Under the pieces are notes generated by a model. It was not told the origin of the DNA and did not search any database. It was given only the letters and a program-made list of their open reading frames with translations. The position numbers and the translations under genes are program-made. From NCBI GenBank assembly GCA_015067825.1, contig SVLQ01000003.1, positions 161,944 to 225,943 of the forward strand: 64,000 bases of DNA, read 5' to 3'. Shown here piece after piece: positions 60,334-64,000 of the stretch (positions are counted from its first letter, which is position 1; each line of letters opens with the position of its first letter). Origin of the DNA: Oscillospiraceae bacterium. GTDB taxonomy: Bacteria > Bacillota > Clostridia > Oscillospirales > QAMX01.

Positions 60334-60355
60334 GGAAAAGTAACAGATTTTGTGG

Positions 60356-60384
60356 TTGAATTTTACCAGAAAAGATGGTAAAAT
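60356..60384 (+). promoter_or_regulatory. Promoter with operator-like palindrome for the envelope cluster
   Basis: TTGAAT (60356-60361), 17 bases, TAAAAT (60379-60384). A palindrome ATTTTACC-9-GGTAAAAT (60360-60384) fills the space between the two elements and overlaps both, as an operator would. Confidence 0.75.
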
Positions 60385-60433
60385 GTTAACTGGAAAAATA
60401 ATCTGCACCGCAGACGATATAAGGATGATTCGC

Positions 60434-61891
60434 ATGCAAACTTCAACTCTCAAGCGTTGGCTCAAACGCATTTTTTCTGCGATCGGCATCACCGCGGCTA
60501 CACTCGTTACCACGATTCTTGTGGCCTTTTTTGTGTTGCTCTACGGCCCGTTCCATCAGCTCCGCGATCTCTATGTTATCACAATGCTCGAGACGAGCGC
60601 GGCGAAGTTCATGGCGACATGGTTTTTCAGCGATGAGACGATTGAGGCGATCCTGGATTCCAATCGCCTCGAAGTTGTCGATGAACCGTCCGACCCGTCG
60701 CTGGTCAGCATTGCCGTGACTCGCCCGAAACAGACGACGACGCAAACTCCGCCGACGACCGAACCGCCGGCTTCCTCCACGACCGAATCGACGACTTCCG
60801 CAACGATCGCACCGACAACCGCGATCACCACCGAGACGACCATTCCGGATGTGCAGGGGAGTGAGCCGACCGTAACTACAACAGAAGCTACCACCACAGA
60901 GCCACCGCAGACGACGACCGAAGCGACGACCACCACTCCCGCGACGACAACGATTATCACCACGATCGACCCGCTGCACACCGAAGCGCCTGCCCCGGAC
61001 GAACTCTTTGCCGACCATCCCGATGCCATGCCGCAAACCGACGGTCTTGACGGCCTGCAGCTCGTTTCCGTCAGCAGCAGTACCTTTAATGGCTATATGC
61101 TCGTTATCTCCGACCCGTCGCGCGTGTCGCTCTGTGTGTCCTATTCGATCCTCTACGGTCGTCAGGCCGGTTGGGATGCGACCTACGGCGAACAGCTGCG
61201 CTCGATGGTCAAGCGCTACGGTGCCGTTGCGGGTATCAACGGCGGTGCATTCTACGATCCGGACGGCGAAGGCAACGGCGGACGTCCTGACGGTGCGCTT
61301 GCTGTCGACGGCGAATTGATCTACTGGGGCCCGGAGATCGAGAGCGAAGAAGCCTACCTCGCCGAGATTGAGCGCATTGAAGCCGCAATCGAAGCCGGCG
61401 AGATCGCACCCGATTCTCCCGAAGCGCAGATCCCCGAAAAACACGACTGGCAAAACGACCGTGTCAATATCATCGGCATCAACCAAGACCATATCCTGAT
61501 CCTTGGCCGCTTCACGAAAGCCGAATTTTTGGAACAGGGTTTCCGCGATGCCGTTTCGTTCGATAACCCCAATCCGCCGTTTTTGGTCATCAACGGCAAG
61601 GCCTCGACCGTTGTCGGCACCGGCGGCAGCGGTATCCAACCGCGCACCTGCATCGGTCAGCGCGCGGACGGTGCGTTCCTCTTCCTCGTCATCGACGGAC
61701 GCGGTGCCGGCGGCAGCCTTGGCGCGACCCAAAAGGAAGCCATGGATCTGATGATCGAATTCGGTGCGGTCAACGCGGCGAACCTCGACGGCGGTTCTTC
61801 GAGCGAGCTTATCCTCAACGGCGAAACGATCTCCAACCCCTGCTCGATCTACGGCCCGCGCTATATGCCCGACGGCTTCATCGTGCGCTGA
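60434..61891 (+). CDS. Membrane-anchored phosphodiester glycosidase (NAGPA domain)
   Basis: 485 residues from the ATG at 60434 (MQTSTLKRWLKR), with AAGG 9 bases upstream. One N-terminal membrane helix (about 15-40), then a long Thr/Pro-rich linker (about 97-185), then the NAGPA-type phosphodiester glycosidase domain (about 210-485): AVAGINGGAFYDPDGEGNGG, IDGRGAGGSLGATQKEAMDLM and LDGGSSSELILNG. The domain uncovers or cleaves phosphodiester-linked sugars, for example in wall teichoic acid or exopolysaccharide. A charged helical insert (about EIESEEAYLAEIERIEAA) interrupts the domain. Extracellular, anchored. Confidence 0.9.
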   Translation: MQTSTLKRWLKRIFSAIGITAATLVTTILVAFFVLLYGPFHQLRDLYVITMLETSAAKFMATWFFSDETIEAILDSNRLEVVDEPSDPSLVSIAVTRPKQTTTQTPPTTEPPASSTTESTTSATIAPTTAITTETTIPDVQGSEPTVTTTEATTTEPPQTTTEATTTTPATTTIITTIDPLHTEAPAPDELFADHPDAMPQTDGLDGLQLVSVSSSTFNGYMLVISDPSRVSLCVSYSILYGRQAGWDATYGEQLRSMVKRYGAVAGINGGAFYDPDGEGNGGRPDGALAVDGELIYWGPEIESEEAYLAEIERIEAAIEAGEIAPDSPEAQIPEKHDWQNDRVNIIGINQDHILILGRFTKAEFLEQGFRDAVSFDNPNPPFLVINGKASTVVGTGGSGIQPRTCIGQRADGAFLFLVIDGRGAGGSLGATQKEAMDLMIEFGAVNAANLDGGSSSELILNGETISNPCSIYGPRYMPDGFIVR

Positions 61892-61902
61892 GAGGGGAGC
61901 TT

Positions 61903-63171
61903 ATGAAGCTGTATTTCCGTTTTTGCGCCGCTGCAGCAGCGGCGGCAACTCTGCTTTCCGTTACAGCCTGCAATACCGTCTCTCCTGCAACGGCCACCAC
62001 GCCACCGATAACTACTGCGCAGACGGTACCGCTCACAACCGAAGCGACAACGACTTCGGCAATTTTGTCCACCGAGCCGACAACGACGGTAACCGTACCG
62101 CCGCAGACCGTTCCGACAACCGTCCAAACGACTACGGCAACCACGCCGGTAACGACAACCGCGACTACGCCGGTAACTACCACCGTTCCGACGACCGAAG
62201 CGACGACCACGACGGTTGATCTCTACGAAATGGTGATTGAACCGCCGACGGACACGAACGCAGCCGAACCGCTTGCGATCAAAACCTACGACGGCTACAA
62301 CCAACCGTGCCATCCGAAGGTCTTGTACTTTGCCGATGGCTGGAACGGCTATCGCTATTGGATGGCCTACACGCCGTACCCTTACTGCGAGGACAGTCTG
62401 GAAAATCCGTGTCTCGCCGTATCCGACGACGGTTACACCTGGTTTGCGCCGGATGGGGTCAAGAATCCCGTAACAGGTTATCCGCCGACGTTTGAAAACA
62501 GCGCCCATTATTCCGATCCGCACCTTCTGATGAACGGTGAGACGATGGAACTGTGGTTCCGTTACAATCCGTCCTACGGTGACGGGGTCAACGCTGACTC
62601 CAACGAGGGTATCATCCTCCGCATCTGTTCGACCGACGGGATTCATTGGAGCGAAGCCGAGCAGCTCTACCAGAGCCGTGCCGACCGCGATCCCGTTTTG
62701 AGCCCGATCGTTGAGCTGGTCGACGGTGTGTACACGATGTGGTACGCCAAACGCGACGGCTGCCTCTACAAGACGACTTCTGCGGATGCCCATACGTGGA
62801 CACCGCTGGAGAAAACCGACCTCCATGCGCCCGACGGCCGCATCTGGCACCAGGATATGATCCGCACGGAGCTCGGCTACGAGATCGTTTTCTGTGCCCG
62901 CCCGGCCGGAGCAAAATCGAATCTGCACGATCTCTCGCTCTATTACGCTGCGAGCGAAGACGGTGTGCACTTTACCGAGCCGGTTCTGATCGTCGCGCCC
63001 CGCAAGGGAACCGACGCCTACGACAACGCGTCGATCTACCGCGCATCGATCGTCAAGGCCGACGGTCTTTACCGCATCTACTACAGCTCGATGAGCGAAC
63101 GCTATATCTGGAAGATCAGCCTCTGCGAGGGCGAAAGCATTTCTTCGCTCAAAGGTATGGGCAGAGAATAG
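61903..63171 (+). CDS. Lipoprotein with Thr-rich linker and GH43/GH32-like beta-propeller
   Basis: 422 residues. Lipobox in LLSVTACNTV. Residues about 25-105 are Thr-rich (TTTATTPVTTT type). The C-terminal 310 residues look like a five-bladed propeller with repeated WFAPDGV, WSEAEQLY and WTPLEKTD strands and SDDGYTWF, STDGIHWS, SADAHTWT turns, the pattern of GH43/GH32/exo-sialidase-like proteins. Acidic residues that could be catalytic are present (for example DPVLSPI, SDPHLLMNG), but I cannot fix the family. Probably binds or cuts a surface glycan. Encoded 12 bases after the glycosidase gene. Confidence 0.82.
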   Translation: MKLYFRFCAAAAAAATLLSVTACNTVSPATATTPPITTAQTVPLTTEATTTSAILSTEPTTTVTVPPQTVPTTVQTTTATTPVTTTATTPVTTTVPTTEATTTTVDLYEMVIEPPTDTNAAEPLAIKTYDGYNQPCHPKVLYFADGWNGYRYWMAYTPYPYCEDSLENPCLAVSDDGYTWFAPDGVKNPVTGYPPTFENSAHYSDPHLLMNGETMELWFRYNPSYGDGVNADSNEGIILRICSTDGIHWSEAEQLYQSRADRDPVLSPIVELVDGVYTMWYAKRDGCLYKTTSADAHTWTPLEKTDLHAPDGRIWHQDMIRTELGYEIVFCARPAGAKSNLHDLSLYYAASEDGVHFTEPVLIVAPRKGTDAYDNASIYRASIVKADGLYRIYYSSMSERYIWKISLCEGESISSLKGMGRE

Positions 63172-63189
63172 TTCCGGAAAGGACACACT

Positions 63190-64000
63190 ATGACCACAAA
63201 AGTACTTCTGATCGCGCTCGCCGGTCTTGCGGAACGCGATCTTTCCCGACTGGTGCTGCCGACGGATCCAGCCAAAGTATCCTTGCAGCCGATCAGTCCG
63301 GCATCCGTTTGCCCAACGCTGACCTCGTTGGTGACTGGGGTATATCCCGAACGCCATGGTGTTGTCAGCGATGCGCCGTGTTCCGTCGGCATCGTGTCGC
63401 CTTTGCCGCATCGCTTGAAGAACGCCAACCGCGCCAAAACGATCTTCTCCTTGGCGCACGCTGCCGGGCTGAAAACCGCTTCCGTCAACTGGCCGCTGAC
63501 GGAAGGGGACGCCGATATCGATTTCCTTTTGCCGAACTGTAACGGCGACGAGACTGCCGTTAATCAACTGGCAACGATCCTTGCGGGCGACGTACCCGAC
63601 TTTGCCGCGCTGCAACTGCACGGGGTGCTCGATGCAAAGCTTCAATACGGTGTGGACAGTCCGGAAGCTGATGCTGCGGTGAAAATGCTGCAGGCGCAGC
63701 TGTCGGCACTTTTGCCGCTGGCAGAAAACGTTTTGCTTGTCGGTGCGGTCTCGCCGCAGACGATCACGCGGAAGGTTTCTCTCAACGCCGAATTTGTCCG
63801 CCGTGATCTGATCTCGCTCGACGAAAACGGCTGCTTTGCCGATTACAAGGCATGGTGCCAGTCCAACGGTCTGAGCAGTTTTGTCTATCTGAAAAACCCG
63901 TCCAACATGGGCGTGCACGACCAAACCGAGGCTCTTCTCGACTCCTTGCAGAAAAACGGCAGCTTCGGTATCGGCGAAGTGCTGACGCGCGAGGATGCCG
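63190..64000 (+). CDS. Alkaline phosphatase-fold protein with degenerate active site (3' end outside window)
   Basis: The open frame starts at the ATG at 63190 (AAAGGA upstream) and runs off the right edge (about 270 residues seen), which is why it is not in the track. Layout matches type I phosphodiesterase/nucleotide pyrophosphatase proteins: VLLIALAGLAERDLS at the start, PTLTSLVTGVYPERHGVVSD, YGVDSPEADAAVKML and ENVLLVGAVSPQTI. In active enzymes the matching positions read as D-G, D-x-x-G-H and S-D-H-G metal motifs; here they are A-G, a degenerate G-V-L-D-A-K and G-A-V-S. No signal peptide. Third gene of the envelope cluster. Confidence 0.78.
   Translation, partial: MTTKVLLIALAGLAERDLSRLVLPTDPAKVSLQPISPASVCPTLTSLVTGVYPERHGVVSDAPCSVGIVSPLPHRLKNANRAKTIFSLAHAAGLKTASVNWPLTEGDADIDFLLPNCNGDETAVNQLATILAGDVPDFAALQLHGVLDAKLQYGVDSPEADAAVKMLQAQLSALLPLAENVLLVGAVSPQTITRKVSLNAEFVRRDLISLDENGCFADYKAWCQSNGLSSFVYLKNPSNMGVHDQTEALLDSLQKNGSFGIGEVLTREDA

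Follow-up and report, generated by a model that had tools for sequence, protein, structure and literature searches.

The open reading frame that runs off the end of the window (the whole stretch of 64,000 nucleotides that was analysed) encodes a protein that is, by profile comparison, a full-length member of the NPP-like (PF01663) family of Bacillota in which, by alignment, the catalytic set has been lost entirely. We consider it probable that this protein is a retained cytoplasmic NPP-fold pseudoenzyme, putatively binding a ligand or a partner through its cap. The tree shows that Bacillota have evolved comparable metal-free proteins on at least two further occasions.

Gene and locus organization

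The window holds the ATG start and the first part of the gene (Table 1). The remainder, whose sequencing had been proposed in the earlier note, was recovered from the same genome, and the complete gene has an intact frame of 365 codons with no internal stop. Only 18 nucleotides lie between the stop codon of the preceding gene and the ATG; this spacing and the good Shine-Dalgarno sequence in front of the gene suggest that it is probably the last member of a three-gene transcript, in which it follows the genes of a NAGPA protein and a GH-like lipoprotein. The next gene, of the MerR type, is on the opposite strand. The codon usage of this putative pseudo-NPP gene (0.726) is similar to that of the adjacent genes.

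Table 1. Coordinates of the putative pseudo-NPP gene, its altered sites, its upstream neighbours and the metal-free proteins of other genera. Unprefixed positions are those of the window; the locus or contig is given before the colon elsewhere.
Feature	Position	Strand	Basis
NAGPA (phosphodiester glycosidase) protein, membrane-anchored; annotated start uncertain	60350..61891	+	
422-aa lipoprotein with Thr-rich linker and beta-propeller/GH-like domain, upstream gene	61903..63171	+	
Shine-Dalgarno-like GGAAAGGA, 6 nt upstream of ATG	63176..63183	+	sequence
NPP-fold protein without catalytic residues, 5' 270 of 365 codons	63190..64000	+	ORF, Pfam, hhalign
Ala11 at the first zinc-ligand Asp site (Asp54 of Xac NPP; Asp in 50/50 relatives)	63220..63222	+	alignment
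Val40 at the nucleophilic Thr site (Thr90 of Xac NPP; Thr in 50/50 relatives)	63307..63309	+	alignment
Leu44 at the family-invariant His of the TYPxH motif	63319..63321	+	alignment
QLHGVLDAKLQYG replacing HxxxxDxxRHxxG (motif 3): Gln142 for His, Leu147 for ligand Asp, Leu151 for ligand His	63613..63651	+	
Ala186-Val187 replacing the ligand pair Asp-His of S-D-H-G	63745..63750	+	alignment
Cap region, as conserved as in active relatives; its end, near residue 293, is outside the window	63751..64000	+	comparison with active relatives
Complete pseudo-NPP gene in host assembly	L002:5134-6231 (end at G000:C22:226230)		
Metal-free NPP-like protein, genus g311	L100:9240-10529, L101:1147-2427, L102:1235-2527		
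Metal-free NPP-like protein of G045, genus g36	L104:6042-7046		

Family membership

The alkaline phosphatase/NPP-type layout that had been recognized from the letters alone was borne out by two comparisons. The protein matches PF01663 with 41.9 bits, above the curated Pfam cutoff of 23, and hhalign against a profile of 24 active relatives aligned all 365 residues (probability 100, E=1.5e-48). When the PDB is searched with the active-family profile, Xanthomonas NPP and the ENPP family match best. A weak match to PF25294 RENR_N (15.9 bits) stays under the cutoff of that family. Searches of the window protein against NCBIfam and with PADLOC gave no match, and no relatives were found in viral contigs.

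Other PF01663 matches exist in the host genome. The motif set of the one on contig C9 is apparently intact, and the host cell may therefore still possess NPP-type chemistry. A further PF01663-like protein of the host (L111:1246-2073, contig G000:C7) has an odd N-terminus (CYNPDAIALW), and its later motifs (DGTMH, PDHG) are apparently intact.

Loss of the catalytic residues

In Xac NPP, as is established for that enzyme, the nucleophile is Thr90, and Asp54, Asp210, His214, Asp257, His258 and His363 are the metal ligands; in the PDB alignment the motifs of the family come in the same order. The window protein was aligned with translated relatives from the host family, order and class and with two found by scanning genome contigs. 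Every one of the 50 active relatives in the alignment has the first six residues unchanged (Asp, Thr, Asp, His, Asp, His). The seventh, the last His, can be read in 48 of them and is there each time; of the other two sequences, one is truncated and one masked. The wider phylum-level set also retains the motifs, the exceptions being two distant members with ambiguous alignment and one partial sequence.

None of the seven residues is kept in the window protein, which has Ala, Val, Leu, Leu, Ala and Val at the first six positions; the loop with the last His, which belongs to the C-terminal H-G motif and lies beyond the window, is either deleted or devoid of His. Other conserved columns are kept in 27 of 55 cases, as against 0/7 for the catalytic ones (Fisher p=0.014). 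Two further family-invariant His residues are replaced, by Leu and Gln, and there are several deletions relative to the active relatives. Thus the first Asp, the nucleophilic Thr/Ser, the DxxxH pair, the S/G-D-H pair and the C-terminal H-G His of an active NPP are all missing. The three altered motifs named in the earlier note (LIALAGL, GVLDAKLQYG and VGAVS) had been correctly aligned and its metal-motif losses hold, but its list lacked the replacement of the nucleophilic Thr by Val40 and the missing last His. Lacking the nucleophile as well as every one of the six metal ligands, this protein would be incapable of two-metal phosphodiester hydrolysis.

A re-purposed enzyme, which would catalyse a metal-independent or differently coordinated reaction through other residues, appears decidedly unlikely. 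In its favour, motif 3 still contains a His and an Asp that are displaced by one or two positions, and the structure model, built for the 270-aa window part and two homologues (L019 and L020), is too poor to exclude a rearranged metal site (mean pLDDT 46, pTM 0.41). On the other hand, no cluster of Asp, His, Glu or Cys replaces the lost core ligands in the alignment, and the five remaining ligand positions are now Ala, Leu or Val.

Neutral decay versus retention

Gene decay under neutrality was simulated in 1200 replicates, starting from three real active genes. The first stop codon appeared at about 0.02 substitutions per site, whereas losing all seven residues took about 1.2, by which time a median of 15-16 stops had accumulated. 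In none of the 1200 simulated decays were all seven residues lost with the frame still open, and an analytic bound puts the chance of a seven-residue loss without a stop at about 1e-7, however long neutral evolution runs. This excludes simple local decay, as far as such decay is neutral. The earlier note had held that homologues with normal motifs would point to local decay; most homologues are indeed normal, but the neutral form of such decay does not survive the simulation. This outcome implies that the protein was still under selection after, or while, catalysis disappeared, and together with the intact frame it suggests that the protein was kept once catalysis had been lost.

Neither 1316 genome searches nor the genome-contig scan turned up an orthologue that shares the substitutions of the window protein, so purifying selection on the window gene is supported indirectly. 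The gene nevertheless encodes a homologous protein that has lost its catalytic residues and appears, by these indirect arguments, to be maintained, as expected of a pseudoenzyme. The tree gives the window protein a very long branch (2.42 changes per column), a length that is also compatible with strong relaxation.

A relict, whose function is lost and whose frame is open by chance or through weak residual selection while decay is under way, would account for the very long branch, for the several deletions and for the absence of the same form from congeners (one genome of the host genus was searched). We nevertheless judge a relict to be unlikely, since purely neutral loss of the seven codons is excluded, the codon usage of the gene is normal, the conservation of its cap is selective and g311, another genus, stably maintains a comparable form (the last two points are described below).

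Cap region

We defined the cap as the stretch between S-D-H and DGYTSF and computed the identity of the core without the catalytic columns. The window protein is more similar to its active relatives in the cap (0.36, at the low end of the relatives' own range) than in the core (0.26): conservation of the cap is on a par with active enzymes, and it is the catalytic core that has eroded. The resulting cap/core ratio of 1.41 compares with 0.82-1.15 across 25 active relatives (permutation p=0.007). In NPP enzymes the cap sits beside the active site, and its retention is the ground for the binding role proposed here: through it, the protein would most likely bind either a partner protein or a phosphoester-like ligand, which it would leave unhydrolysed. 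Of the metal-free proteins, the window protein alone shows the cap bias; both other lineages lack it, and we therefore do not extend the idea of cap binding to them.

Independent losses in other lineages

Two further metal-free lineages were found, in the genera g311 (L100/L101/L102) and g36 (L037/L077). In g311, six of the seven residues are missing in corresponding ways in all three species examined, whose proteins are 59-65% identical. The first Asp of motif 3 is retained, and the replacement residues differ from those of the window protein. The catalytic-loss form is here conserved among orthologues under purifying selection, with a dN/dS near 0.27-0.29 (NG86), a rough value given that dS (0.7-1.1) approaches saturation. 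The g311 genomes are small (1.5-1.7 Mb) and AT-rich, with a local GC content of 24-25%. The gene stands in a fixed synteny of a CAAX-protease-like membrane-protein gene, pseudo-NPP and PAP2.

The CAAX-protease-like gene upstream of it (L100:8046-8981 and orthologues) has LExxY(R/K/I) in place of EExxxR, the canonical motif of CAAX proteases, and its product may be degenerate too.

In g36, the protein of genome G045 keeps none of the seven residues and, as in the window protein, has no last-His loop, and that of its congener G132 keeps three and is an apparent intermediate. For the L037 protein, which keeps 3/7, the Fisher test of residue retention is not significant (p about 0.3). The g36 genes have QueT/HDOD neighbours.

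In a tree built without the catalytic columns, the metal-free forms need a minimum of three changes, although their exact placement is unsure because of long branches. A single origin of all metal-free forms was rejected (AU p=0.0006), and the grouping of the window protein with g311 was weakly rejected (p=0.04). There are thus three independent losses within one family, and the loss of the catalytic set is complete or nearly so in two of them. The earlier proposal of a pseudoenzyme, or of binding without hydrolysis, is thereby strengthened by these parallel losses, in addition to the total loss of catalytic residues, the intact frame, the neutral simulation and the selective conservation of the cap.

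Neighbouring genes and predicted compartments

The pseudo-NPP starts at the first core strand and has no signal peptide, and is on this account assigned to the cytoplasm. By contrast, the NAGPA protein is membrane-anchored and the GH-like protein carries a lipoprotein signal; as read from the sequences, the pseudo-NPP is thus probably cytoplasmic and its two neighbours exported, in different compartments. Both upstream proteins (60350-63171) carry long Thr-rich linkers behind the anchor or lipoprotein signal, a design for display on the cell surface.

It had been considered plausible that the protein is a sensor or specificity subunit working with the adjacent NAGPA phosphodiester glycosidase on a phospho-glycan. 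The close gene spacing, which suggests a shared transcript, speaks for such a subunit. The gathered homologues did not support this suggestion. The GH-like gene has orthologues in two genomes, G009 and G014 (56-60%). In G014 the contig ends, which leaves G009 as the single relative that can be read beyond the NAGPA-GH pair. Its HAD (divergent), NAGPA and GH-like genes are conserved, but they are followed by a gene for an LRR lipoprotein and not for an NPP protein. Moreover, phmmer found no NAGPA or GH-like neighbour beside any NPP homologue whose neighbourhood was examined, so that the adjacency of NPP and NAGPA genes is seen in the host genome only. Several active relatives adjoin apparent ABC transporter genes, as judged by reading their sequences. 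Given the predicted cytoplasmic location of the pseudo-NPP, its exported-looking partners and the gene order of G009, we regard the glycan-sensor role as highly improbable.

Relation to known systems and significance

The NPP phosphodiesterases (PF01663; Xanthomonas NPP, PDB 2GSN/2GSO; ENPP1-7) share their family profile with the window protein over its full length. Unlike them, the window protein has neither the nucleophilic Thr nor any of the six metal ligands, and it is shorter (365 versus about 440 aa), with the last-His loop and a mid-protein insert deleted. Phosphonoacetate hydrolase (PDB 1EI6, 3SZY), a weak match of the active-family profile in the same superfamily, is an active zinc enzyme and far more distant than NPP. 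The g311 and g36 proteins come from the same parent family by separate losses and differ from the window protein in replacement residues and neighbours.

The ectodomain of the (pro)renin receptor ATP6AP2 has been described as a pseudo-alkaline phosphatase without the conserved Asp and His metal ligands (PMC10073018). The window protein resembles it in its alkaline-phosphatase-like fold and in the missing ligands, but ATP6AP2 is a eukaryotic extracellular/membrane protein, and a sequence relationship between the two is neither significant nor claimed. The precedent indicates that the fold can persist without its metal site. In the open-access literature we found nothing specific on bacterial pseudo-NPP proteins, which is no proof of absence.

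Annotation pipelines would label all these metal-free proteins as phosphodiesterases. The three independent losses in one family amount to a natural experiment on the role of the fold without metals, for which the three species of g311 provide a conserved test case. We tentatively suggest, at slightly less than even confidence, that metal-free proteins with a binding or regulatory role have repeatedly been made by Bacillota from a single family of NPP-like phosphodiesterases, at least one form being conserved genus-wide, and that among bacteria this set would parallel the human (pro)renin receptor with its pseudo-alkaline-phosphatase ectodomain.
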